Positions 3-61,138 of a DNA stretch of 61,138 nucleotides are shown here, piece after piece. Where the stretch lies: NCBI GenBank assembly GCA_016779995.1, contig JADHMO010000001.1:347411-408548 (forward strand), written 5' to 3'. A model generated the notes under the pieces. That model was not told the DNA's origin and ran no database searches. It saw nothing but the letters and a program-made list of their open reading frames with translations. The position numbers and the translations under genes are program-made. The DNA comes from Flavobacteriales bacterium (GTDB lineage: Bacteria; Bacteroidota; Bacteroidia; Flavobacteriales; UBA7312). Position 1 is the stretch's first letter. Each line of letters opens with the position of its first letter.

Positions 3-1799
3 TTTAAAGAAGAAGATTGGGTAAACTATTTCTTTGTAGTTTCAAGCTACAACGACTTGACCGAAAATTATCTCAAAAGCTTAGAAGTTATAGAAATAGA
101 AAAAGATGCCTCTATTTTAAAAATCTCTTTAGAAGGTTCAAATCCTGAAAAGATAAATGACTTCCTTAATAAATTTACCGAACTTTATTTAGCTACAGAT
201 TTAGATGAAAAAAATCAAATTACATCTAATACTATAGAGTTTATAAACGAACAACTAATTTCTATTTCAGACTCTTTATCTGATGTTGAAAGTAGCCTAG
301 AAACTTTTAAAGAAAGAAATCCAAAAATAGAACTGTCGCAAAAAGAATACGGTGCTTTTTATCAAGTAGAAAAGCTAGAACAAGAAAAAGCTATTTTGGA
401 GCTAAACAACAAGTATTATATCTCACTCGAAGAGTACTTGATTGAAAATAACAATGTTGATAATATTGTTGCCCCTTCTACTATGGGAATTGATGATCCG
501 CTACTAAACAGCCATATTGTTGAATTAACTAAATTATATTCTCAACTTGATGTAGTGAGTGTAAATTCAAAACAAGAGCATCCGCTTGTTATATCTATAA
601 AAAAGCAAATCAAAAGCACTAAGGAAAAATTAATTGAGAATATTGAAAATATCATCAGTAGTTCAGAGCTTACTCTTAAAGACATAAACTCAAGAATTGC
701 TGAAATTGAAAATTTAATTGGTGATCTTCCACAAAATGAAAGAATACTTTTAAAAATTCAAAGAAAATTTAACCTCAACGAAAATATCTACAACTACCTA
801 CTAGAGAAAAGAGCTGAAGCATCTATAACAAAAGCAAGTAACATATCTGACCATAAAGTCATTGATATGCCACGATTAGAGTCTAACTTGCCAATTAAAC
901 CTAACACAACATTCATCTATATTTTTTCTATTTTACTTGGTGTTTTTCTACCAACTATAAGCATTAGTTTATACTTTTTATTTAACAACAAAATCATAGA
1001 TAAAAAAGATATAGACCAAATAACCTCCATTCCACTAATTGGTAAAATTATGCATAATGATAGTGCTTATAACTTAGTTAATATCAATAGTCCAAAATCA
1101 GGAATAGCAGAGTCATTCAGATCTATAAGAACTAATATACAGTATTTGGCATCTGACAAAAAAGAGAAAGTCATTTGTATTACTTCAAGCGTTGGTGGTG
1201 AAGGAAAAACTTTTGTTGCTATGAATTTGGCCTCAATTTTTAGTATTACTCGTGGAAAAACAATTCTAATTGGCGCAGATATGAGAAAGCCAAAGATTTT
1301 TAATGACTTTAACCTATCCAATGACAAAGGGTTAAGCTCTTATCTAAGTAATCAAAACACCAAAGATGAAGTTATTCAAAAAACAGAATTTGAAAACTTA
1401 GACATCATTCTATCTGGACCAATACCCCCTAACCCGTCTGAATTATTAAGTTTAGATAAAATGAAAGACTTTATTGAAGAGCTAAAGAAAACATACCAAC
1501 ATATTATCATAGACACTCCTCCTATTGGATTAGTAACTGATGGACTAATTTTGATGAAGCATTCTGATGTAAACATTTATGTAGTAAGACAAAATTTCAC
1601 AACAAAAGATATGCTACATAACTTTAACGAAACTGTCATTAAGAATAATGTAGTCAATATTAACCTCATAATAAATGATATTTCTAACGATAAATCATCT
1701 TATGGGTACGGATATGGATATGGAAATACCTATGGTTATGGTTATTATGCTGAGGATAAAATCCAAGAGAAAAAGCCATGGTGGAAAAAAAGTAACTAA
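3..1799 (+). CDS. Polysaccharide co-polymerase / BY-type tyrosine kinase (Wzc-like), 5'-truncated by window edge
   Basis: Membrane tyrosine autokinase that controls chain length and export of capsular or exopolysaccharide. The frame is open to the first bases of the window with no stop, so the gene starts further left; the TTG at 57 is internal. The visible 598 residues hold a charged, coiled-coil-rich periplasmic part (to about 300), one membrane helix (about 302-328, TTFIYIFSILLG), then a cytoplasmic kinase with Walker A (SSVGGEGKT), Walker A' (LIGADMRKP) and Walker B (HIIIDTPP). The C-terminus is a tyrosine cluster (GYGYGYGN, TYGYGYY), the usual autophosphorylation site. A glycosyltransferase and gmhAB follow, which fits surface polysaccharide synthesis. 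The first Wzz membrane helix must lie outside the window. Confidence 0.9.
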   Translation, partial: FKEEDWVNYFFVVSSYNDLTENYLKSLEVIEIEKDASILKISLEGSNPEKINDFLNKFTELYLATDLDEKNQITSNTIEFINEQLISISDSLSDVESSLETFKERNPKIELSQKEYGAFYQVEKLEQEKAILELNNKYYISLEEYLIENNNVDNIVAPSTMGIDDPLLNSHIVELTKLYSQLDVVSVNSKQEHPLVISIKKQIKSTKEKLIENIENIISSSELTLKDINSRIAEIENLIGDLPQNERILLKIQRKFNLNENIYNYLLEKRAEASITKASNISDHKVIDMPRLESNLPIKPNTTFIYIFSILLGVFLPTISISLYFLFNNKIIDKKDIDQITSIPLIGKIMHNDSAYNLVNINSPKSGIAESFRSIRTNIQYLASDKKEKVICITSSVGGEGKTFVAMNLASIFSITRGKTILIGADMRKPKIFNDFNLSNDKGLSSYLSNQNTKDEVIQKTEFENLDIILSGPIPPNPSELLSLDKMKDFIEELKKTYQHIIIDTPPIGLVTDGLILMKHSDVNIYVVRQNFTTKDMLHNFNETVIKNNVVNINLIINDISNDKSSYGYGYGYGNTYGYGYYAEDKIQEKKPWWKKSN

Positions 1800-1814
1800 C
1801 ACAAAACACATCAC

Positions 1815-3020
1815 ATGAAAAAGCACAAACCAGCTGACAGTATTCAAGACATTCAATACTTTGGTGAATATGGAGGTGTTAATCCATCTATTGCCGATTC
1901 TTCTACTTTTACATACTTGGCAGGTAAAACTATGGAAATGGTATTCGGAGGAGAACGTGAAGGCTGTTATTTGTATTCAAGACACATGAACCCTAGCACA
2001 GGATATCTTGCTGAAGCCATTGCTAATATGGAAAATACAGATGCAGCACATGTATCAGCATCAGGAATGGGTTCAATTAGTAGTACTATAATGCAATTGT
2101 GTAAAAGTGGTGATCATATTGTAAGTAGTCGAACTATATATGGTGGAACTTATGCCTTTATGAAAAACTTTTTGCCAAGACTACAAATTAGTACATCTTT
2201 TGTTGATACCACTAATCTAGACGCTGTTAAATCTGCTATTTGTGCCGATACTAAAATTTTATATTGCGAAACAATGAGCAACCCTTTGTTAGAAATTTCT
2301 GACATTAAAAAATTAGCTGAACTGGCTCATGCAAACAATTTAAAACTAGTAGTAGACAACACCTTTACCCCCCTCATTTTTTCTCCTGCTGAGCTAGGGG
2401 CTGATATAGTAATTCACTCACTAACGAAATTCATTAATGGAGCTAGTGATACAGTTGGAGGGGTTATTTGTTCTACCAAAGAGTTTGTAGGAGACCTCAT
2501 AGACGTCAATGAAGGTGCAGCAATGCTTTTTGGTCCAACTATGGATGCTATACGAGCTAATGGTATCCTCAAAAACTTGCGAACACTACCAATAAGAATA
2601 AAACAACACAGTAATAACGCACTATTTCTTGCTAAAAAATTTAAAGAGCTAGGTTTAAATGTTCACTATCCTGGTCTTGAAAGCCATCCTCAACATGAGT
2701 TGATGAAGAAAAGCATGAATGCCGAATTTGGTTTTGGTGGTATGCTAGTATTAGACGTTGGTAGCATGAAAAATGCTTATCAAGTCATGGAGGAAATGCA
2801 AAATAATAACATAGGTTATTTGGCAGTAAGTTTAGGCTTTTACAAAACCCTATTCTCTGCACCTGGCGCAAGCACATCTTCAGAAATACCACAAGATGAA
2901 CAAGATGAAATGGGTATTTCAGAAGGAATGATTCGAATGTCTATTGGCTTAGATAATGATATTGAACGTACCTTTCAAAAGATGAAAAAGTGTTTGATTA
3001 AGACTAATATTCTGAAATAA
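1815..3020 (+). CDS. Cys/Met metabolism PLP-dependent enzyme (methionine gamma-lyase / cystathionine gamma-synthase family)
   Basis: PLP enzyme of the trans-sulfuration family, 401 residues, the normal family length. The cofactor lysine lies in HSLTKFINGASD at about residue 203, after the conserved VVDNTFTPL segment, and the C-terminal substrate region has the family GMIRMSIGLD motif. Sequence alone does not separate methionine gamma-lyase, cystathionine gamma-synthase/lyase and O-acylhomoserine sulfhydrylase. The start lies 15 bp after the kinase gene, so it is probably co-transcribed, although no functional link to polysaccharide is evident. Confidence 0.85.
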   Translation: MKKHKPADSIQDIQYFGEYGGVNPSIADSSTFTYLAGKTMEMVFGGEREGCYLYSRHMNPSTGYLAEAIANMENTDAAHVSASGMGSISSTIMQLCKSGDHIVSSRTIYGGTYAFMKNFLPRLQISTSFVDTTNLDAVKSAICADTKILYCETMSNPLLEISDIKKLAELAHANNLKLVVDNTFTPLIFSPAELGADIVIHSLTKFINGASDTVGGVICSTKEFVGDLIDVNEGAAMLFGPTMDAIRANGILKNLRTLPIRIKQHSNNALFLAKKFKELGLNVHYPGLESHPQHELMKKSMNAEFGFGGMLVLDVGSMKNAYQVMEEMQNNNIGYLAVSLGFYKTLFSAPGASTSSEIPQDEQDEMGISEGMIRMSIGLDNDIERTFQKMKKCLIKTNILK

Positions 3021-3083
3021 GACTAGAGGCAATAGTTGTTTCATACAATAGGATTATTATATTTACAGAAATAATTTCCCCTT

Positions 3084-4508
3084 ATGAATCAATCTTTTTT
3101 TAGTGCGCTACTTCCCATTATTTTTTTAATAGCCTTACTTTCTTTTAATGTCTATCTATACGGTGATGATAGTTTAGGTGGTGCAAATCAATTAGCACTT
3201 TTGTTATCTGCCGCTTTTGCTGCCATAATGGGGCTAAAAAGTGGCACCTCTTGGACAAGTATTCTAAAAGGGGTTAGTAACAGTATAGCTTCAACTACAC
3301 CAGCAATCATTATACTTTTACTCATAGGCTCACTAGCAGGAACTTGGCTAATAAGCGGTATTGTCCCTACTATGATTTATTATGGATTACAAATACTAAA
3401 TCCCAAAATTTTTCTCGTAGCTGCAGCTATCATATGTGCTATAGTTTCACTAGCCTCAGGAAGTTCTTGGTCAACTATCGCTACTATAGGAATTGCTCTA
3501 TTGGGAATAGGTAATGCTCTGGATATTTCAAACGGTCTTACAGCAGGAGCTATAATATCAGGAGCATATTTTGGCGATAAAATGTCACCCTTATCTGATA
3601 CCACAAATCTCGCTCCAGCAATGGCAGGAACAGACTTATTTACTCATATCAGATACATGATGCACACGACTATTCCTAGCTTTTTAATAACACTTCTCAT
3701 ATTCTTATTCATTGGGCTTTCAATGGATAACACACAAAATTCTGACGATATTACAAACTTGTTAACGGCTATAGAAAGTAGTTTCAACATAAGTCCATGG
3801 TTGTTTTTAGTTCCTGTAATCGTACTATTACTTATTGTGAAAAAAGTACCTGCACTACCAGCCTTGTTCGCAGGTACATTATTAGGCGGGATTTTTGCAA
3901 TTATTTTTCAACCCCATCTAATCGTAGAACTTTCAGGTATAGATACTAATTTCTTTCAAGCCAGTTATGTATCCGTTATCAATGCTATGGGCTCTGAAAC
4001 AAGCATAAACACCTCTAACGAGATGATAAACGATTTGCTTTCTTCAGGTGGTATGTACGGAATGTTGAATACAATATGGCTAATAATTTGTGCTATGTGT
4101 TTTGGTGGGGTGATGGAAACTAGTGGTGCTCTGAAGAAGATTAGCCAATCTATAATAAAATATGCTGAAAGTACAGGCTCAGTCATTGCAACTACTGCTT
4201 GTACTTGTTTATTTTTTAATGTCACGGCAAGCGACCAATATTTAAGTATTGTAGTACCAGGAAGAATGTATGCCGATACATTTAAAGATAAAGGTCTAGC
4301 ACCTGAAAACCTAAGTCGCACATTAGAGGACAGTGGAACTGTAACTTCTGTGCTAGTTCCTTGGAACACCTGTGGAGCAACACAATCTGCAGTTTTAGGA
4401 GTAGCTACAATGACCTATTTACCATTCTGTTTTTTTAATATTATTAGTCCATTAATGACAATATTATATGGATATTTAGGTTTTAAAATAAAAAAAATAA
4501 AAAGCTAA
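3084..4508 (+). CDS. Na+/H+ antiporter, NhaC family
   Basis: Polytopic inner-membrane protein of 474 residues with about 11-12 hydrophobic segments, starting with an N-terminal helix (LLPIIFLIALLSF). Family-like features are the SGSSWSTIATIG and GAYFGDKMSPLSDTTNLAPA segments and the C-terminal LEDSGTVTSVLVPWNTCG stretch, all typical of NhaC/malate-lactate antiporters. Members exchange Na+ for H+, some coupling this to malate/lactate. A weak promoter-like TATATTTA lies upstream (about 3058), separating it from the previous gene. The glycosyltransferase begins 1 bp after its stop. Confidence 0.88.
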   Translation: MNQSFFSALLPIIFLIALLSFNVYLYGDDSLGGANQLALLLSAAFAAIMGLKSGTSWTSILKGVSNSIASTTPAIIILLLIGSLAGTWLISGIVPTMIYYGLQILNPKIFLVAAAIICAIVSLASGSSWSTIATIGIALLGIGNALDISNGLTAGAIISGAYFGDKMSPLSDTTNLAPAMAGTDLFTHIRYMMHTTIPSFLITLLIFLFIGLSMDNTQNSDDITNLLTAIESSFNISPWLFLVPVIVLLLIVKKVPALPALFAGTLLGGIFAIIFQPHLIVELSGIDTNFFQASYVSVINAMGSETSINTSNEMINDLLSSGGMYGMLNTIWLIICAMCFGGVMETSGALKKISQSIIKYAESTGSVIATTACTCLFFNVTASDQYLSIVVPGRMYADTFKDKGLAPENLSRTLEDSGTVTSVLVPWNTCGATQSAVLGVATMTYLPFCFFNIISPLMTILYGYLGFKIKKIKS

Positions 4509-51452: not shown

Positions 51453-52709
51453 ATGAAAAAGCATCTCGTTTTAATTCTTACGCTTTGCTTTCAACTCAAT
51501 GCTTGGGCGTCCTACCTACTTATACCTATGGACGATACACAGACTAACCACCTCAAAGCGTATGGCATTGCCTACTGGGTGTTAGAAAATCAGCAAGAAG
51601 TGGATTGGCTACTCAATTACAGAGGGGGGAGTTTTTTGATAAAAAACCAATCACTGATAGAAAAGGAGTGTAAAATAAGAGGTGTTTCTTATCAAATTAT
51701 TGCCGATGTACAATCTACCCAAATACTAAGGGAAATATCTAGTCCAGAAGTCAATCAAGATGTGGTAAAACTAGAAAAAGTACCCAAAATTGCCGTTTAC
51801 TCACCCAAAAGCAAATTGCCTTGGGACGATGCCGTAACACTTGCACTGTCTTATGCCGAAATCCCTTACGACTTGGTATATGACGAAGAAGTGATTGGCG
51901 GCTCTCTCCCTCTTTACGACTGGTTGCACTTGCACCATGAAGACTTTACTGGTCAGTACGGAAAATTTTATGCGGCCTATAAAAATGCCGAATGGTACAG
52001 AAAACAAAAACAAGATTTTGAGCGTTCTGCTCAAAAAATGGGCTTTCAAAAAGTTTCTCAAGCCAAATTAGAAGTTGCACTAAAAATTCGTGAGTTTACT
52101 GCTGGTGGTGGTTTTCTCTTTGCCATGTGCTCAGCTACCGATACTTACGATATCGCTTTGGCGGCTAAAGATGTAGATATATGCGAATACATGTTTGATG
52201 GCGATGGTGCTGACCCCCAAGCCCAAGAAAAACTGAATTACGACAACACCTTTGCTTTTAAAGATTTTTCTCTAGTTAATAATCCTAATAAATATGAGTA
52301 CTCTAGCATAGATGCTACAGGAACTAGAAACTTAAACCAATCTTTGGATTTCTTTACTTTATTCGAATTTTCTGCTAAATGGGACCCTGTACCAACGATG
52401 TTGTGCCAAAACCACGAGCAAGTTATTAAAGGTTTTATGGGGCAAACTACTGCTTTCAAAAAGGAATACATCAAGTCTGATGTGCTGATAATGGGCGAAA
52501 CCTCCTCAGTCAATGAAGCGAGGTATATCCACGGTAAATTTGGTAATGGTACTTGGACATTTTACGGTGGTCACGACCCTGAAGACTATCAACATAAAGT
52601 TGGTGACCCAAAGACTGAACTAGAATTACACCCTAATTCACCGGGTTATAGACTTATTTTAAACAACGTCTTATTCCCTGCTGCTAAAAAGAAAAAGCAG
52701 AAGACTTGA
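51453..52709 (+). CDS. Secreted protein of the family labelled 'asparagine synthetase B' in Bacteroidota
   Basis: Exported protein of 418 residues with a signal peptide (MKKHLVLILTLCFQLNAWAS). The family, usually found next to dnaB in Bacteroidota, is named asparagine synthetase B in databases, but neither the N-terminal Cys nucleophile nor the PP-loop SGGxDS of AsnB is visible. Instead a flavodoxin-like/class I amidotransferase-like layout can be read: KIAVYSPKSKLPWDDAVTLA, EIPYDLVYDEEVI, then FTAGGGFLFAMCSATDTYDI with a Cys in a tight turn, and GNGTWTFYGGHDPEDY. The real function is unknown. Confidence 0.8.
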   Translation: MKKHLVLILTLCFQLNAWASYLLIPMDDTQTNHLKAYGIAYWVLENQQEVDWLLNYRGGSFLIKNQSLIEKECKIRGVSYQIIADVQSTQILREISSPEVNQDVVKLEKVPKIAVYSPKSKLPWDDAVTLALSYAEIPYDLVYDEEVIGGSLPLYDWLHLHHEDFTGQYGKFYAAYKNAEWYRKQKQDFERSAQKMGFQKVSQAKLEVALKIREFTAGGGFLFAMCSATDTYDIALAAKDVDICEYMFDGDGADPQAQEKLNYDNTFAFKDFSLVNNPNKYEYSSIDATGTRNLNQSLDFFTLFEFSAKWDPVPTMLCQNHEQVIKGFMGQTTAFKKEYIKSDVLIMGETSSVNEARYIHGKFGNGTWTFYGGHDPEDYQHKVGDPKTELELHPNSPGYRLILNNVLFPAAKKKKQKT

Positions 52710-52827: not shown

Positions 52828-53340
52828 TCAATCAATATCAAAACCTATCCTTTTTCTATTCTTTTGTTTGTCTGTTTTTATCTTCTCAGAAATTAAATAA
52901 TCTAGTGCTTGAAAAACATCCTCAAAGCGAGAATCCGTAGTGTCTTCTAAATTTTTAATTTTATCTAATAAAGCGTCATAATTTATTCCCTGTTTACGCA
53001 TAGCTACAAAGGTTCGCATTATAGAGATGTTTACCTTAATGGCTTTTGTAGAACGTAAAACTGAACTCAACATAGCTACACCTTGCTCAGTAAAAGCATA
53101 GGGAGCTCTTCTTCGACCTCCGTGTTGCTTAGTTGATATCACATTTTGTGATATCAAGTGTTGAACTTCTTCTTGACTCAATTGAAACATAAAATCTTCA
53201 GGGAAACGCTCTAAATTACGCTTAACTGCTTGATTGAGAACTCGTGTTTCAACTTCATACAAATTGGATAAATGAAAGTCCAATAATACTTTTGTATTTC
53301 TAAGATTTACAATAAGGAATTTATAATTCTGTATTTCCAT
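52828..53340 (-). CDS. ORF6N-domain DNA-binding protein
   Basis: Protein of 170 residues with an N-terminal ORF6N domain: VNLRNTKVLLDFHLSNLYEV, VLNQAVKRNLERFPEDFMFQL and GRRRAPYAFTEQGVAMLSSV. The rest is helical (RTFVAMRKQGINYDALLDKI) and ends basic (KTDKQKNRKRIGFDID). ORF6N occurs in phage and bacterial regulators related to KilA-N. The motif GRRRAPYAFTEQG is well preserved, so the gene looks intact. It follows a paralogue (53457) on the same strand at a distance of 116 bp. Confidence 0.88.
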   Translation of the reverse strand: MEIQNYKFLIVNLRNTKVLLDFHLSNLYEVETRVLNQAVKRNLERFPEDFMFQLSQEEVQHLISQNVISTKQHGGRRRAPYAFTEQGVAMLSSVLRSTKAIKVNISIMRTFVAMRKQGINYDALLDKIKNLEDTTDSRFEDVFQALDYLISEKIKTDKQKNRKRIGFDID

Positions 53341-53456: not shown

Positions 53457-54017
53457 TTAAGCTTGTTTTTCTATTTCGTTTTCTTTCTTTCGTTTAGTGG
53501 TGTGTTTGAGTTTTAAAACCGCAAAATTCAATTCAATAGTCGTTTCTGACTCTAAGGTTTGTAAACTTTCGTCCATAAGCTCTGCCATAAGTTCCCCGCT
53601 TTTCTTTAGTAAACTATTCTTTTTTTCTTCTGTAGCTGAACTAATTGATGTCACCATTTGCTGTAAAGCTCTTAGCTTGGCAAAGGTTTCGATGATTAGA
53701 AATGTAGCCTGAGTGGCCTGTTTACTTTTCAAAATCGTTGCCAACATATACAGACCCTTTTCAGTAAAGGCTTTGGGTGGCACTCTTGTTTTTGAATAAT
53801 TTGCGGTCGAAAATTTCGACCGCAAATTGTTCCATTCACTTTCAGATAATACAATGATATAATCTGAAGGAAACTTATCGATATTATTTTTCACTGCTTC
53901 ATTAATGCGTTTGGTTTCTACACCAAAGAGATGTGCTACATCACGGTCTATCAGCACTTTTTGCTGATTAATATCGATGAGTTTTTCTTGAATATGTAAA
54001 ATAGATGTCTTTTCCAT
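53457..54017 (-). CDS. ORF6N-domain DNA-binding protein, coupled to the giant repeat gene
   Basis: Protein of 186 residues with an ORF6N domain (INQQKVLIDRDVAHLFGVET, RINEAVKNNIDKFPSDYIIVL, PPKAFTEKGLYMLATILKSK) and a C-terminal coiled coil ending in a Lys/Arg/Glu-rich tail (LKHTTKRKKENEIEKQA). The ATG at 54017 is 4 bp after the stop of the giant gene on the same strand; the longer in-frame start overlaps that gene. The spacing implies co-transcription and perhaps translational coupling. It is only distantly similar to the next ORF6N gene. Confidence 0.87.
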   Translation of the reverse strand: MEKTSILHIQEKLIDINQQKVLIDRDVAHLFGVETKRINEAVKNNIDKFPSDYIIVLSESEWNNLRSKFSTANYSKTRVPPKAFTEKGLYMLATILKSKQATQATFLIIETFAKLRALQQMVTSISSATEEKKNSLLKKSGELMAELMDESLQTLESETTIELNFAVLKLKHTTKRKKENEIEKQA

Positions 54018-54021
54018 TTTT

Positions 54022-57000
54022 CTAATCAATAATAAACCAACCACTTGAAGTAGCTACTAAAGTCATAGACTGGTAGCCTATGTTTAGAGTACGTGTTGCT
54101 TGACCATCAATAGTACTAGATGTTGGCGATAAAGTAATGTTATTACCTGCTGCCGAAGTACGCTTAATTTTCAATTCATAACCTTCAGGGAATTCTCCCG
54201 CACCAGTACCAATAGCTGGTATAGTAACGGTCATGTTAGCACCCGGAGTGACGAGTAAAACATCGGTATCGCTATTCACAGAACCAGAAGACGTTAGCGT
54301 TTGAATAGTATGAGTAGCCGAACCTTGTGCTACTTTCTTCAGAACACCTGTGGCGTCCACAACAACAACTGAATCGGTAGCAGCACCTAAGGGTAAACTT
54401 CTTACTCGAGCACCACCATCTACATCCAATCGCTGACTAGGTACAATATTAGCACCAATTCCAAAATTACCTGCTCCAGTGAGTACAGCAGAAGTCTGTT
54501 GAGTACTTCCATCGGTATTGGTCCAGAATTTTATAGCCCCATTAGTACCACTAGCCGCTGAACCTGCTACTAAGTCTAATACGCCAGTATTGGCAGTAGC
54601 ATTGTTTCCGTGTAAGTCTATACTCGCTCCTTTACTATCGTTATAACTTTCGTCATCACCAGCCGTGATTCTCAATCGAGAATGGGTCGTCCCATCTATT
54701 CCTAATACTGCTGAAGAAGAAATACCGGGAATAGCAAAAGCACCAGGGTTGGCAAATAATAAACGCTGATCGCCTGACTTAAATCTTGCTGCCTCTACAT
54801 TATTAGTTTTGAAGACTAAGTCTTGAGCATCTGTAGTTCCTACAAAATTAGTTCCTGCTGTTGTACCTGCATTACCACCTAATTCCCAACTACCTGAACT
54901 TAAATCAGATAAAGCTACTGCATTACCATCTTCGATACGTAAACTGTCACCATCTATACTAATAGTCTGGTCGTCACTACCAACCGAGGAAGAACTTACT
55001 TTTTTCAATAAACCGTCACTATCTACAACTACTATTTCATCTGTGGAAGCACCAGCATCCATTGCTGTAATTTTGGCATTACCCTCCACATGTAATTTGG
55101 TATCTGGAGAATCCGTACCCACACCAAAATTATTCTCAGAAACATCCGCAAAAATTAAGGTTGAAGTAGCAGTTGTAAATGTCTGACCAACTATCTCAAA
55201 CTCACAAGCATTGAAAATATCATCGCCTCTAGAAGTGTTAGCCCCATTAGGGAAAATATAACGCACTTCATCAGCTACAATATTAGGTACTACCGCAGTA
55301 GTCCAAGCCGATGGGCCAGAAGCTGCCGCTATGGTAGAACTGGTATAAACTAAAGTACCCCCATTGTATAACCTAAACTCACCACCTCCAGTTCGTAAAT
55401 TCCAAGTACCTGTACCAGACGATTGAGCTTGAATACGGACTGAAGTAATGTAATAGCTCGTTCCGAAAGTATAGCCAAAGCCCCAATCTTGACCAGCTGT
55501 AGTACGATCGGAATGAAAAGACCATATCCCAGTCTCAGTAGCATTATTGAACAAGGAAGCATTACTACCATAAGCTGTACCATCTACCCCAATTGCAGCA
55601 TTATAATACGCAAAGTTTGCATTGTTAAAAGCCTCGTAGTTAGTTACAATCTCTTGAACAGTACCAGTAGGTGTAACATCCTCACCAACAACTTGAACAT
55701 CACCAGCTCTACGAGCCAAATTAGTAGTATCCTCACCATCAACTGCCCAAGCATCACCATCGGCATCTTTTAATGGGCTCAAATCTAAGGTCTGATTGGC
55801 TACACCATCATCTTCTAAAGAAATATTCAACATAGTATCGCCTACTAAAGTCAGTACATCTATAGTCTGATCATCAGTACCTAAAGAAGATAAAGCTACT
55901 GCATTACCATCTTCAATACGTAAACTGTCTCCATCAATATAAATAGTTTGGTCGTCTGTGCCTGTACCATCTTGTAAAGAAGATAAATCTACCGTATTCG
56001 GTGCTACACCATCGTTTTCTAAAGATAAATTCAAAGTAGTGCCAGAAAGTGTAAAGGCATCAACTGTTTGGTCATCAGTACCCGTTCCATCTTGTAAGGG
56101 AGATAAATCTACAGTGTTACCACCTTCAATAGTTAGGTTTGTTCCAGCAAAAGTTAATTGTTGGTCGTCTGTTCCTGTACCATCTTGTAAAGACGATAAA
56201 TCTACCGTACTTGGTGCAACACCATCACTCGATAAAGATAAACTCAATGTTGTGCCAGAAAGAGCAAAAGCGTCAACGGTTTGTATCTCATTGGTCACAT
56301 CGCCGTCCACTTCGTTAGTTGTAATAGTAGATAAATCCACATTACCACCGTCCGTCAAGTAAAGAGTATTGCCAATAAGCGATAAATCTTGGGTATCCGT
56401 ACCTGTACCATCTTGTAAAGAAGATAAATCCACTGAACTCGGTAAGACATTATCATTTTCTAAAGAAATACTCAAAGTTGTTCCTGACAAACTAAAGGCA
56501 TCTACGGTTTGTATCTCGTTAGTCACATCGCCATCCACTTCTGTTGTAATAGTTGCTAAATCTACGGTATTACCATCTTCAATAGTCAAGTTTGTTCCAA
56601 TCAAAGTTAATTGTTGGTTATCTGTTCCTGTGCCATCTTGTAAAGAAGATAAATCCACTGAACTCGGTAAGACATTATCATTTTCTAAAGAAATACTCAA
56701 AGTTGTTCCTGACAAACTGAAGGCATCTACGGTTTGTATCTCGTTAGTCACATCGCCATCCACTTCAGTTGCTAATGAAGATAAGTCAATAGTTTCTGAA
56801 GTACCACCTTCAATACCTATGGTTAAATTCGTACCTGACAAGAAAGAACCACTGATATTTTGATCGTCAGTACCAGTACCGTCTTGTAAAGCGGTTAATG
56901 CTATACTTTTTGTGCCTCCTGCATCAATAATGTTCAGATTACCACCACTGACATTAAATCCAGTGTTTAACTCATTCATAGTATCGCCATCTATCTCATT

Positions 57001-60000
57001 TGTGGTAATAGTCGATAAGTCCACATTACCTCCATCCGTTAGGTAAAGGGTATTGCCAATAAGCGATAAATCTTGGGTATCCGTACCTGTACCGTCTTGT
57101 AAAGACGATAAATCTACTGTACTTGGTGCTACACCATCGTCCTCTAATGAAATACTCAAAGTTGTTCCTGATAAACTGAAAGCATCTACGGTTTGTATCT
57201 CGTTTAAGGTATCGCCATCCACTTCTGTTGTAATAGTTGCTAAATCTACGGTATTACCATCTTCAATAGTCAAGTTTGTTCCAATCAAAGTTAATTGTTG
57301 GTCGTCTGTACCTATTCCATCTTGTAAAGACGATAAATCTACTGTACTTGGTGCAACACCATCACTCGATAAAGATAAATTCAAAGTTGTTCCCGATAAA
57401 GCAAAAGCATCTACCGTTTGTATCTCGTTAGTCACATCGCCATCCACTTCTGTCGTTAAAGTTGCTAAATCTACGGTATTACCATCTTCAATAGTCAAGT
57501 TTGTTCCAATCAAAGTTAATTGTTGGTCGTCTGTTCCTGTACCATCTTGTAAAGACGATAAATCTACTGTACTTGGTGCAACACCATCGCCTTCTAAAGA
57601 TAAACTTAATGTTGTGCCAGAAAGAGCAAAAGCGTCAACGGTTTGTATCTCATTGGTCACATCGCCATCGACTTCTGTTGTAATAGTTGCTAAATCTACA
57701 GTGTTACCATCTTCAATAGTCAAGTTTGTTCCAATCAAAGTTAATTGTTGGTCGTCTGTACCTGTTCCATCTTGTAAAGACGATAAATCTACCGTATTTG
57801 GTGCTACACCATCGCCTTCTAAAGATAAACTTAATGTTGTGCCAGAAAGAGCAAAAGCATCTACCGTTTGATCGTCCGTCCCTGTGCCATCTTGTAAAGA
57901 TGAAAGGTCAACTGTGTTTCCGTCTTCAATGGATAAGTCTGTACCTAAGAGCGTTAACTGTTGGTTGTCTGTACCTGTACCATCTTGTAAAGACGATAAA
58001 TCTACCGTACTTGGTGCAATACCATCATTCTCTAAAGAAATACTTAAAGTTGTACCAGATAAATTAAAGACATCAACGGTTTGTATCTCATTGGTCACAT
58101 CGCCATCAATCTCATTTGTGGTTATCGTTGATAAATCGACATTACCCCCATCGGTTAGGTAAAGGGTATTACCAATAAGTGATAAATCCTGTGTATCCGT
58201 ACCTGTACCATCTTGCAAAGACGACAAATCTACTGTACTTGGCGCTACACCATCACTCGATAAAGATATATTCAAAGTCGTTCCAGATAAAGCGAAAGCA
58301 TCAACGGTTTGTATCTCATTGGTCACATCGCCATCGACTTCTGTTGTAATAGTTGCTAAATCTATGGTATTACCATCTTCAATAGTCAAGTTTGTTCCAA
58401 TCAAAGTTAATTGTTGGTTGTCCGTACCTGTTCCATCTTGTAAAGAGGATAAATCTACCGTATTTGGTACTACACCATCGCCTTCTAAAGATAAACTTAA
58501 TGTTGTGCCAGAAAGAGCAAAAGCATCTACCGTCTGGTCATCCGTCCCTGTACCATCTTGTAAAGATGAAAGGTCAACTGTGTTTCCATCTTCAATAGTA
58601 AGGTTTGTTCCAGCAAAAGTTAATTGTTGGTCGTCTGTTCCTGTACCATCTTGTAAAGACGATAAATCTACTGTACTTGGTGCTACACCATCACTCGATA
58701 AAGATATATTCAAAGTCGTTCCAGATAAAGCAAAAGCATCAACGGTTTGTATCTCATTGGTCACATCCCCATCCACTTCGTTAGTCGTAATTGTTGATAA
58801 ATCCACATTACCGCCATCTGTTAAGTAAAGCGTATTGCCAATAAGTGATAAATCTTGAGTATCCGTTCCTGTACCATCTTGTAAAGACGATAAATCTACC
58901 GTATTAGGTGCTACACCATCGCCTTCTATAGATAAACTTAATGTTGTGCCAGAAAGAGCAAAAGCATCTACCGTCTGGTCATCCGTGCCCGTGCCGTCTT
59001 GCAAAGATGAAAGGTCAACTGTGTTTCCATCTTCAATAGAAAGGTTAGTCCCTTCTAATGTCAACTGTTGGTCATCTGTACCTGTACCATCTTGTAAAGA
59101 CGATAAATCTAAGGTGCTTGGTGTTTGGTCGTCATTTTCTAAAGATAAATAAAGTGTAGAGCCCACCAAAGATAATTGGTCTATGGTTTGTATCTCGTTT
59201 AGTGTATCGCCGTCCACCTCATTAGTTGTCACAGTCGATAAATCCACATTACCCCCATCGGTTAGGTAAAGGATATTGCCTATAAGTGATAAATCTTGTG
59301 TATCCGTACCTGTACCATCTTGCAGTGCTGCTAGATTTACACTGTGCGAAGTCGCTTTTTCAGAAAGTGAAATTTCTAAAGTGGTACCTGTCAGATTCAG
59401 GACATCAATATCTTGTATTTCGTTTAAGGTGTCACCATCTACTTCAGCACTATTTAAAGCTGTTAAATCAACAGTATCTGACAAACCACCTTCAATTCCT
59501 ATAATCAACTGATTTCCAAATAAATAAGAGCCACTGATATTTTGGTCATCTGTACCTGTACCATCCTGTAAAGATGATAATGCTACACTTTTTGTACCTC
59601 CCGCGTCTGTAATATTCAAATTGCCACTTGCTACATAAAAGCCAGTGTTTAACTCGTTCATAGTATCGCCGTCAATCTCGGTTGCCGAAATAGTAGATAA
59701 ATCTACCGAACCTCCATCTTCTAGTGTTAGTGTATTGCCAGAAAGAGATAATAATTGATCATCTGTACCTGTTCCATCTTGTAAAACACTTAAATCCAGT
59801 TGCTTTGGTGCTTCACCATCATTTTCTAATGATAAGAATACTGTGTTTCCAGATAAAGAGAACATATCTATAGTTTGTAGCTCGTTAGCTGTATCGCCAT
59901 CAACCTCAGAAATAGCCAAAGGCGATAAGACTACCGAATTACCATTACTTAAAGTTAGCGTATCGTTCACCAAACTCAAGGTTTGTAACTCATTAAGCGT

Positions 60001-61137
60001 ATCTTCAAGGTATGGGGATAAATCTACTGCTCCACCATCGGTCAAGAATAAGCTATCGTTAGCAATACTTAAACTTTGTATCTCATTAGTAGAGTCACCA
60101 TCACTTTCTGTTATGATTAAAGAAGTTGAAGCAATTTGCTTGATATATCCGTTAGGATCTAGCATCATAACACTATCCGAAGTAGAAGCTACAGGTGCGT
60201 CGTCTATTCTAACATTACCAGCAATATGTAATTTGGCTTGAGGACTAGCTGTTCCTACACCTATATTTCCAGCATTTTCTAAATGTAAAATGCTATCTGT
60301 AGCATCAGATTTGAAGGATAAATCCATACCCTCAGTAAATTCTATTTCATAAGCACCATCTGTACTAGGCACAAAAGATGAATTCGTACCAGCCGAATTA
60401 GAGAATACTAATTTTGTTGGGTCAAGTACACCCTGAACGTCCACATCACCAGCAAAGGTAGCTACCTTACCTGCCGTAGTGGTATTCTGTCCAACTGCAA
60501 GATTACCCATATAATACATATCTCCAGTATTAGTAGTATGACCTTCTGTTGTACCTACCGTATTCCATGGTTCGTTGACAATACTATCTAATGGTACACC
60601 AAATGAACCACCAGCATCGGTAATGAATAAACTGTCGTTGATTATCTCAAAAGCCGTGTTCCACTCGTTGGTAGAGTCTTGGTCATTATCACTAGCCATA
60701 ATACTATCTAGTGGCACACCAAATGAACCTCCAGCATCGGTAATGAATAAACTGTCATTGATTATCTCAAAAGCCGTGTTCCACTCATTGGTAGAGTCTT
60801 GGTCGTTATCACTAGCCATAATGCTATCTAATGGCACACCAAACGAACCGCCAGCATCAGTAATGAATAAACTGTCATTGATTATCTCAAAAGCCGTGTT
60901 CCACTCATTGGTAGAGTCTTGGTCATTATCACTAGCCATAATGCTATCTAATGGTACACCAAATGAACCACCGGCATCAGTAATGAATAAACTATCATTG
61001 ATTATCTCAAAAGCCGTGTTCCACTCATTGGTAGAGTCTTGGTCTAAATCTGAACTAATCGCACCTAAGTAAACGTCATTACCATCGCTCAAATACAAAG
61101 TATCGTTGCTGATAGACAAGAACTGAATCTCGTTAGT
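54022..61137 (-). CDS. Very large tail-fibre-like surface protein with beta repeats, 5'-truncated by window edge
   Basis: More than 2,370 residues; the frame is open to the window end, so the N-terminus is missing. Order from the N side: four copies of a 40-residue unit (DQDSTNEWNTAFEIINDSLF...), a tail-fibre-like module (NIGVGTASPQAKLHIAG), an array of about 1,450 residues with some 22 LQDGTGTD motifs alternating with VDGDVTNEIQTVDAFALSG units, a discoidin-like domain (plus coordinates about 55160-55690), and a C-terminal part with two more fibre modules (NFGVGTDSPDTKLHVEG; NFGIGANIVPSQRLDVDG) ending GYQSMTLVATSSGWFIID. One cysteine is visible and no T9SS sorting domain. It resembles phage-tail-fibre-like proteins of Bacteroidota; adhesin is an inference. 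G+C is visibly higher than in neighbours. Confidence 0.85.
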   Translation of the reverse strand, partial: TNEIQFLSISNDTLYLSDGNDVYLGAISSDLDQDSTNEWNTAFEIINDSLFITDAGGSFGVPLDSIMASDNDQDSTNEWNTAFEIINDSLFITDAGGSFGVPLDSIMASDNDQDSTNEWNTAFEIINDSLFITDAGGSFGVPLDSIMASDNDQDSTNEWNTAFEIINDSLFITDAGGSFGVPLDSIVNEPWNTVGTTEGHTTNTGDMYYMGNLAVGQNTTTAGKVATFAGDVDVQGVLDPTKLVFSNSAGTNSSFVPSTDGAYEIEFTEGMDLSFKSDATDSILHLENAGNIGVGTASPQAKLHIAGNVRIDDAPVASTSDSVMMLDPNGYIKQIASTSLIITESDGDSTNEIQSLSIANDSLFLTDGGAVDLSPYLEDTLNELQTLSLVNDTLTLSNGNSVVLSPLAISEVDGDTANELQTIDMFSLSGNTVFLSLENDGEAPKQLDLSVLQDGTGTDDQLLSLSGNTLTLEDGGSVDLSTISATEIDGDTMNELNTGFYVASGNLNITDAGGTKSVALSSLQDGTGTDDQNISGSYLFGNQLIIGIEGGLSDTVDLTALNSAEVDGDTLNEIQDIDVLNLTGTTLEISLSEKATSHSVNLAALQDGTGTDTQDLSLIGNILYLTDGGNVDLSTVTTNEVDGDTLNEIQTIDQLSLVGSTLYLSLENDDQTPSTLDLSSLQDGTGTDDQQLTLEGTNLSIEDGNTVDLSSLQDGTGTDDQTVDAFALSGTTLSLSIEGDGVAPNTVDLSSLQDGTGTDTQDLSLIGNTLYLTDGGNVDLSTITTNEVDGDVTNEIQTVDAFALSGTTLNISLSSDGVAPSTVDLSSLQDGTGTDDQQLTFAGTNLTIEDGNTVDLSSLQDGTGTDDQTVDAFALSGTTLSLSLEGDGVVPNTVDLSSLQDGTGTDNQQLTLIGTNLTIEDGNTIDLATITTEVDGDVTNEIQTVDAFALSGTTLNISLSSDGVAPSTVDLSSLQDGTGTDTQDLSLIGNTLYLTDGGNVDLSTITTNEIDGDVTNEIQTVDVFNLSGTTLSISLENDGIAPSTVDLSSLQDGTGTDNQQLTLLGTDLSIEDGNTVDLSSLQDGTGTDDQTVDAFALSGTTLSLSLEGDGVAPNTVDLSSLQDGTGTDDQQLTLIGTNLTIEDGNTVDLATITTEVDGDVTNEIQTVDAFALSGTTLSLSLEGDGVAPSTVDLSSLQDGTGTDDQQLTLIGTNLTIEDGNTVDLATLTTEVDGDVTNEIQTVDAFALSGTTLNLSLSSDGVAPSTVDLSSLQDGIGTDDQQLTLIGTNLTIEDGNTVDLATITTEVDGDTLNEIQTVDAFSLSGTTLSISLEDDGVAPSTVDLSSLQDGTGTDTQDLSLIGNTLYLTDGGNVDLSTITTNEIDGDTMNELNTGFNVSGGNLNIIDAGGTKSIALTALQDGTGTDDQNISGSFLSGTNLTIGIEGGTSETIDLSSLATEVDGDVTNEIQTVDAFSLSGTTLSISLENDNVLPSSVDLSSLQDGTGTDNQQLTLIGTNLTIEDGNTVDLATITTEVDGDVTNEIQTVDAFSLSGTTLSISLENDNVLPSSVDLSSLQDGTGTDTQDLSLIGNTLYLTDGGNVDLSTITTNEVDGDVTNEIQTVDAFALSGTTLSLSLSSDGVAPSTVDLSSLQDGTGTDDQQLTFAGTNLTIEGGNTVDLSPLQDGTGTDDQTVDAFTLSGTTLNLSLENDGVAPNTVDLSSLQDGTGTDDQTIYIDGDSLRIEDGNAVALSSLGTDDQTIDVLTLVGDTMLNISLEDDGVANQTLDLSPLKDADGDAWAVDGEDTTNLARRAGDVQVVGEDVTPTGTVQEIVTNYEAFNNANFAYYNAAIGVDGTAYGSNASLFNNATETGIWSFHSDRTTAGQDWGFGYTFGTSYYITSVRIQAQSSGTGTWNLRTGGGEFRLYNGGTLVYTSSTIAAASGPSAWTTAVVPNIVADEVRYIFPNGANTSRGDDIFNACEFEIVGQTFTTATSTLIFADVSENNFGVGTDSPDTKLHVEGNAKITAMDAGASTDEIVVVDSDGLLKKVSSSSVGSDDQTISIDGDSLRIEDGNAVALSDLSSGSWELGGNAGTTAGTNFVGTTDAQDLVFKTNNVEAARFKSGDQRLLFANPGAFAIPGISSSAVLGIDGTTHSRLRITAGDDESYNDSKGASIDLHGNNATANTGVLDLVAGSAASGTNGAIKFWTNTDGSTQQTSAVLTGAGNFGIGANIVPSQRLDVDGGARVRSLPLGAATDSVVVVDATGVLKKVAQGSATHTIQTLTSSGSVNSDTDVLLVTPGANMTVTIPAIGTGAGEFPEGYELKIKRTSAAGNNITLSPTSSTIDGQATRTLNIGYQSMTLVATSSGWFIID
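55160..55690 (-). other. Discoidin-like (F5/8 type C) domain within the giant protein
   Basis: About 165 residues without the array repeats, containing AYGSNASLFNNATETGIW, FGTSYYITSVRIQAQSSG, GEFRLYNGGTLVYTSS and NIVADEVRYIFPNG. This succession (exposed loop, strand with SVRIQ, then lipid/sugar-facing strands) resembles galactose-binding discoidin folds. The only cysteine seen (NACEFEIVG) is at its end. The assignment is by eye. Confidence 0.5.
55770..60110 (-). repeat. Coding array of LQDGTGTD beta repeats
   Basis: About 22 copies of LQDGTGTD(D/T/N)Q separated by 30-40-residue units of the types GTTLSLSLEGDGVAPNTVDL and GTNLTIEDGNTVDL, interleaved with E(V/I)DGD(V/T)xNEIQ. DNA of neighbouring units is similar enough to be read by eye as repeats, for example the TTGTTGGTCGTCTGT stretch. 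Confidence 0.9.
60580..61044 (-). repeat. Four near-identical 120-bp tandem coding repeats
   Basis: Rows beginning at 60601, 60721, 60841 and 60961 are almost the same base for base. Each 120-bp unit encodes 40 residues starting DQDSTNEWNTAFEIINDSLF; the last unit (lowest coordinates) is shorter by five residues. Confidence 0.95.
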
Positions 61138-61138
61138 A

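Follow-up and report, generated by a model that had tools for sequence, protein, structure and literature searches.

The open reading frame that runs off the right-hand end of the window (the whole 61,138-nucleotide stretch that was analyzed) probably encodes the outer portion of a MAT-like surface fiber of great length in a small-genome Bacteroidota bacterium, with a partner gene upstream that would give it export and/or an anchor. MATs (mosaic adhesive trimers) are the fibers with which predatory Bdellovibrio grips its prey. A surface fiber or adhesin is indicated by the signal peptide and MAT_N-type N-domain on a second contig (C35), the outer-membrane barrel gene upstream of these, a MAT shaft module, and C-terminal modules that have been swapped between fibers. 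The observations behind it are domain homologies, synteny that places the N-terminus, a mosaic C-terminus, the lack of a T9SS signal in the fiber itself and its linkage to partner genes. The earlier note had left three readings of the protein side by side, as a fiber of a phage-derived injection system, a surface adhesin or a filament. The surface adhesin or fiber has gained from the signal peptide, N-domain, upstream barrel and shaft, and the injection-system fiber has lost ground, given a genome in which PF04984 finds no sheath gene and neighbors of outer-membrane and housekeeping type.

The features of the reading frame are summarized in Table 1. The source genome (1.96 Mb, 97% complete) is assembled in 35 contigs, and the right edge of the window is the terminus of contig C1 (408,548 bp). 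The cut is therefore an assembly break and not a consequence of the choice of window. The earlier note had described a giant repeat protein cut by the window edge, and it gave the right range and strand for the frame; the gene itself extends past the window. Its second claim, of LQDGTGTD-type repeats with tail-fiber-like modules, is also borne out. We counted 22 LQDG(T/I)GTD units with E(V/I)DGD units alternating between them, and TRF gives periods of 225, 441 and 120 bp within the frame. The tail-fiber-like modules have the form N(I/F)GVGT..P..KLH, and one of them matches crystal structures of Bdellovibrio MATs. Between repeat copies pS is 0.30-0.49 and pN 0.013-0.091, a ratio of 0.03-0.23 over five repeat classes. 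Synonymous differences thus greatly exceed non-synonymous ones, which shows that the array is coding sequence under purifying selection.

Table 1. Features of the fiber gene within the window
Feature	Position	Strand	Basis or remark
Fiber gene, 3' part	54022..61137	(-)	2,371 codons, 5' open at contig end
Four near-identical 40-aa repeats, D(L/N)DQDSTNEWNTAFEIINDSLFITDAGGSFGVPLDSIMAS	60571..61050	(-)	TRF period 120, 3.9 copies, 95% matches
MAT-like shaft module, residues 195-345, ...NIGVGTASPQAKLHIAG...	60103..60555	(-)	phmmer vs PDB
Main LQDGTGTD / EVDGD array, residues 344-1760, units 31-41 aa	55858..60108	(-)	TRF, repeat count
Non-repeat module, residues 1812-2027	55057..55704	(-)	Common to contig C10 fiber, same genome
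Second GVGT module and next module, residues 2003-2242	54412..55131	(-)	Common to C7, G004 and G006 fibers
C-terminal tip domain, last 101 aa	54025..54327	(-)	Weak phage-record matches

A phmmer search of the whole PDB with the shaft module returned 8ond (Bd2133, E 1.5e-8) together with 8ojn, 8ol4 and 8oml, all of them Bdellovibrio MAT entries; there were no others. Polyubiquitin entries matched by the array were put down to chance, as a repetitive query meeting a repetitive target. Pfam, NCBIfam and PHROGs gave no trustworthy family for the protein, and matches of the full protein to Hexapep_loop, DUF4420, plastocyanin and phrog_6534 were rejected, being below cut-off or within repeats. Structure prediction, which the earlier note had suggested as a way of recognizing a solenoid or trimeric fiber, was less informative. 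AlphaFold2 gave no confident fold for two array superunits modeled as a monomer (pLDDT 50.7, pTM 0.31), a result compatible with an obligate trimer or oligomer but not proof of one.

The C-terminal part of the protein is a mosaic. The module at residues 1812-2027 is 63% identical over 216 aa to the contig C10 fiber (L038:4713-7340), and the second GVGT region is 66% identical over 241 aa to the contig C7 fiber (L037:8149-10662). Residues 2170-2268 are 85% identical over 99 aa to L042:5882-9649 of genome G006, a complete N-domain fiber that ends in an S74 chaperone, and the C-terminal module of the window protein has 67.5% identity over 160 aa to L041:6057-6932 of the same-genus genome G004. 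These modules recur in fibers with different N-termini and different ends, and it is by such mosaicism that MATs are defined. The tip itself is absent from every related fiber examined. The search for homologues of the last hundred or so residues that the earlier note had proposed was productive in part, giving weak matches of the last 101 aa to hypothetical proteins in five phage records (33-41% identity) and no relative in an IMG/VR scan.

The missing start of the gene can be placed by synteny. Its repeat types are common to three other reading frames of the same genome, on C35 (3'-open) and on C11 at 1380-3833 (complete) and 2-1336 (3'-open). The order on C35 is 23S-5S rRNA, Porin_10, an OmpA-family protein and the 5' part of a fiber of 507 codons, which begins with a Sec signal peptide, MKAIFRLLLLMLFSQIVWAQ (judged by eye), followed by the N-domain. 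In G004 a single contig (contig 38) carries dnaB (95% identical), the gene for a 418-aa protein (92%), Porin_10 (62%), and 5S and 23S rRNA, with a reading frame in which an OmpA N-terminus (78% over 79 aa to that of C35) is joined to a fiber C-terminus. By this gene order, C35 belongs immediately upstream of the window gene. C35 and C1 would thus carry a single fiber gene, on the strength of synteny with G004 and with the stretch between them missing; no sequence overlap was found between the two contig ends. Given this join, the full fiber would have at least 2,878 aa plus a gap of unspecified length. The signal peptide that the earlier note had proposed to look for beyond position 61138 has in this way been located, subject to the same join.

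In the G004 frame (L041:6057-6932, minus strand) the first ~80 residues of the OmpA barrel are fused in frame to the C-terminal module of the fiber, through a deletion that took out most of both partner genes with the frame kept, or else through mis-assembly. The 418-aa protein, at 51453-52709 (+) in the window, is secreted and adjoins dnaB; neither Pfam nor NCBIfam matches it at the thresholds applied. A further 5'-open fiber fragment of 854 aa lies at the end of contig C9 (L040:4308-6872, minus strand), and is probably the continuation of the 3'-open fiber at the end of C11 (L008:2-1336).

When the C35 N-domain was compared with 18,950 NCBIfam models the sole match was Bdello_MAT_N (NF053851), which was weak (E 0.0019, 18 bits). 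The curated cut-off of this model is 60 bits, set for Bdellovibrio. NF053851 matches 34 of 99 genomes of the order (best E 2.8e-12, 47.4 bits) and none of 14 controls; none of the 99 lies above the cut-off, whereas Bdellovibrio genomes exceed it. A profile grown from four seeds found 53 N-domains, all at residues ~16-147, just behind the signal peptide. NF053851 was matched by 29 of 30 aligned members (best 2.4e-13), and essentially nothing else was. Judged by sequence comparison, the N-domain is homologous and MAT-like, but outside the curated NF053851 subfamily.

The members have neither a Pfam family nor a PDB sequence match. AlphaFold2 folds one of them as a seven-stranded beta domain (pLDDT 85, pTM 0.76), which has no close structural match in the PDB. 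Middling Ig-like and beta-sandwich matches were obtained from PDB and BFVD (Foldseek best E 4.5e-3; VIA Z <= 7.2, with tied rows), and the T9SS CTDs 6za2 and 8qb1 are among them, tied with others and not standing out. The lack of a close match agrees with the remark of the MAT authors that the Bdellovibrio MAT N-domain has no PDB homologue (PMC10769870). The domain occurs in 86 of 296 sampled Bacteroidota genomes, and in 2-22 copies in five of six Bdellovibrio-type genomes tested. A scan of genome contigs with the C35 N-domain as query found nothing, and a second scan used pieces of Bdellovibrio MATs taken from the PDB alignment. The second scan showed that the GVGT shaft module reaches far beyond the phylum (L095-L174), to Patescibacteria, Omnitrophota, Planctomycetes and archaeal MAGs among others; in several cases a signal peptide is followed by a related N-domain ('VPQTINYQG..').

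No T9SS sorting domain (PF18962, TIGR04183 or other CTD) was detected in the window protein by Pfam and NCBIfam scans, which agrees with what the earlier note had seen at its C-terminus. The same is true of the family in Bacteroidota. We collected N-domain reading frames at the level of the order (53) and of the phylum (33), choosing loci by the N-domain alone; some genomes are in both sets. None has its own CTD (0/53 and 0/33, 0/86 together). Directly upstream on the same strand, however, lies a frame with a T9SS type-A CTD in 31/53 and 25/33 cases, mostly of 149-182 aa and usually separated from the fiber by a few bases. In a further seven of the 53 and three of the 33 the preceding gene is another N-domain gene instead. 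When 21 genomes were searched with the non-CTD domain of this partner, 19/19 matches lay <2 kb from an N-domain gene; it was found in 11/12 genomes with the N-domain and 0/9 of the others (Fisher p 3.4e-5). CTDs in general occur in all 21, mostly by the dozen. Both the source genome and all 17 N-domain genomes tested encode SprA, the T9SS pore.

At the two loci of the source genome the gene adjoining the fiber is different. An OmpA-family gene lies 35-49 bp directly upstream of the fiber in both C35 and C11. The C11 cassette reads small CTD protein, OmpA barrel, fiber, and that of C35 OmpA barrel, fiber. A homologous 217-aa barrel is found between the CTD protein and the fiber in locus L088 (27.7% over 177 aa, E 5e-6). 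We rejected OmpA as a general anchor of MATs, as neither OmpA nor CTD genes are consistent partners beside those of Bdellovibrio. From co-localization and co-occurrence with the N-domain we infer that the partner may escort or anchor the fiber; the linkage is a statistical property of the genomes, and no proof of binding. A correlation between N-domain and partner distances (Spearman 0.66, 44 pairs) is confounded by species phylogeny and was not used as proof. The tandem colony-spreading genes of Kondo 2023 (PMC9950754) are Wza/Wzz-like and unrelated to the fiber partners. In the open-licence PMC literature no CTD-less fiber with a CTD partner is described.

The fiber would be organized as a Sec signal peptide, a MAT_N-type beta-sandwich N-domain, a repetitive shaft built from beta units with GVGT modules, and an exchangeable tip. 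Sec would carry it into the periplasm, where it may assemble as a homotrimer, and the N-domain would dock at the outer membrane on the upstream partner. In most Bacteroidota that partner would be the small T9SS type-A sorting-domain protein; at the window locus it would be the OmpA-family barrel, the OmpA domain of which would bind peptidoglycan. Where there is a small CTD protein, it would take the fiber across the outer membrane via the T9SS, and the fiber would be held at the surface by that protein or, at the window locus, by the OmpA barrel. The distal tip would then bind other cells, particles or glycans. For the window gene itself the scheme is weakest in its T9SS step, because the one recognized small CTD partner gene of this genome is at C11, with none adjoining C35, and its product would act in trans. 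It also counts against the scheme that docking in Bdellovibrio may differ, since MATs there have neither partner nearby.

A more specific proposal for Bacteroidota, which we offer tentatively, is that trimeric fibers of MAT type are exported in trans. The upstream CTD protein would bind the N-domain in the periplasm, carry it through the T9SS and tether it at the surface, in a piggy-back form of type IX secretion, so that the upstream partner is the docking element of the MAT-type N-domain. The holdfast of this domain was left open by the MAT authors (PMC10769870), and gene order together with co-occurrence now names two candidates, the small T9SS-CTD protein and the OmpA-type barrel. The small export-tagged gene beside a tag-less fiber suggests a surface route for the MAT-like fibers of Bacteroidota. 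Should the CTD protein prove to export or anchor the fiber, the T9SS would be able to handle proteins that lack a sorting signal, and a class of very large surface fibers would be going unnoticed in current predictions of its cargo.

A less likely reading is that such a fiber is exported without the T9SS. The OmpA-type barrel alone, or a route common with Bdellovibrio, would then both export and anchor it, and the small CTD proteins of the relatives would be surface co-receptors or modifiers of the tip. The barrel is the sole adjacent partner at the window locus, its 217-aa homologue lies directly upstream of the N-domain gene in L088, and Bdellovibrio MATs are exposed on the surface with no CTD partner (PMC10769870). 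Yet it is the CTD protein, and not a barrel, that is the conserved neighbor across the phylum; C11 and L088 each carry a CTD protein alongside the barrel, and small barrels of OmpA type are not known to serve as translocation pores.

It is improbable that the gene is broken or partly decaying, so that the in-frame deletion in G004 and the ends of the contigs would be marks of degradation in a fiber that once functioned. The G004 fusion has indeed lost most of both genes, and the C-terminal query is unmatched in the same-genus genomes G001-G003. But 2,371 codons are open, pN/pS among the repeats is 0.03-0.23, and breaks in contigs are expected at rRNA genes and repeats.

Still less credible is the idea that the protein belongs to a contractile injection system of phage origin or is left over from a prophage. 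The GVGT modules and C-terminal tip look like parts of phage tail fibers, and two phage-antirepressor-like ORF6N genes lie downstream (52828-53340 and 53457-54044, both minus strand), the nearer overlapping the fiber 3' end by 23 bp. Against this, the syntenic start has a Sec signal peptide, needless for a phage or eCIS fiber; no phage/eCIS sheath (PF04984) was found in the whole genome; and the N-domain family is absent from PHROGs save for one weak match. The neighborhood comprises dnaB, Porin_10, OmpA and rRNA, and the adjoining frames (two ORF6N proteins, DnaB and the 418-aa protein) include no phage structural gene, as the earlier note had stated. Both ORF6N genes are missing from the syntenic place in G004. 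An equally remote idea, that of a trimeric autotransporter (type Vc) or ordinary T9SS adhesin whose anchor went unrecognized, fits the very long repetitive adhesin-like build and N-terminal signal peptide, but Pfam and NCBIfam scans found neither a YadA-type barrel anchor at the C-terminus nor a type A or B CTD, and the CTD count in relatives is 0/86.

Returning to the MAT-like surface fiber with an upstream partner, it can be compared with established systems. The MAT fibers of Bdellovibrio bacteriovorus (Bd2133, Bd2734, Bd3182 and others) were described as a prey-recognition repertoire (PMC10769870). Common to both are a signal peptide followed by the homologous ~130-aa beta-rich N-domain (here on syntenic C35), GVGT shaft modules like those of phage tail fibers, several fiber copies per genome, and C-terminal modules that can be exchanged, some relatives (L042) ending in an S74 chaperone. 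The present fibers differ in lying below the NF053851 cut-off, in the far longer LQDGTGTD-repeat shaft of the window fiber, and in the T9SS-CTD or OmpA-barrel partner genes that adjoin the Bacteroidota fibers. In SprB-type T9SS type-B adhesins the gene for a giant surface adhesin is likewise linked to that for an outer-membrane barrel, but there the adhesin has its own CTD and pairs with a PorP/SprF barrel (PMC12618676, PMC9143113), while the window-type fiber has no CTD and its neighbor is a CTD protein or OmpA-type barrel. A trimeric autotransporter adhesin with TpgA (NF047726), a peptidoglycan-associated protein, embodies the same idea of a trimeric fiber with an OmpA-domain helper. The C35 and C11 OmpA domains match TpgA weakly, over the general OmpA domain alone; the fiber lacks the type Vc C-terminal barrel, and the helper is itself a barrel-plus-OmpA protein. 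With phage and eCIS tail fibers the window fiber shares GVGT modules, tip motifs and, in relatives, S74 ends, but it is set apart by its signal peptide, its outer-membrane gene context and the absence of tail genes.

Two further repertoires were seen. Contig C8 of the source genome carries six clustered fiber-like proteins (L039 268-8005) whose N-terminal domain is not of MAT_N type and whose C-termini resemble chaperones ('EKIEELFLH'); with them this small genome has another class of fiber repertoire. G020, a genome of the same order in a single 1.9 Mb contig, has at least 27 MAT_N-type fiber genes, which matches the repertoire of Bdellovibrio in size; six of them form a tandem array within 20 kb that lacks the small CTD partner (L089 467-19999).
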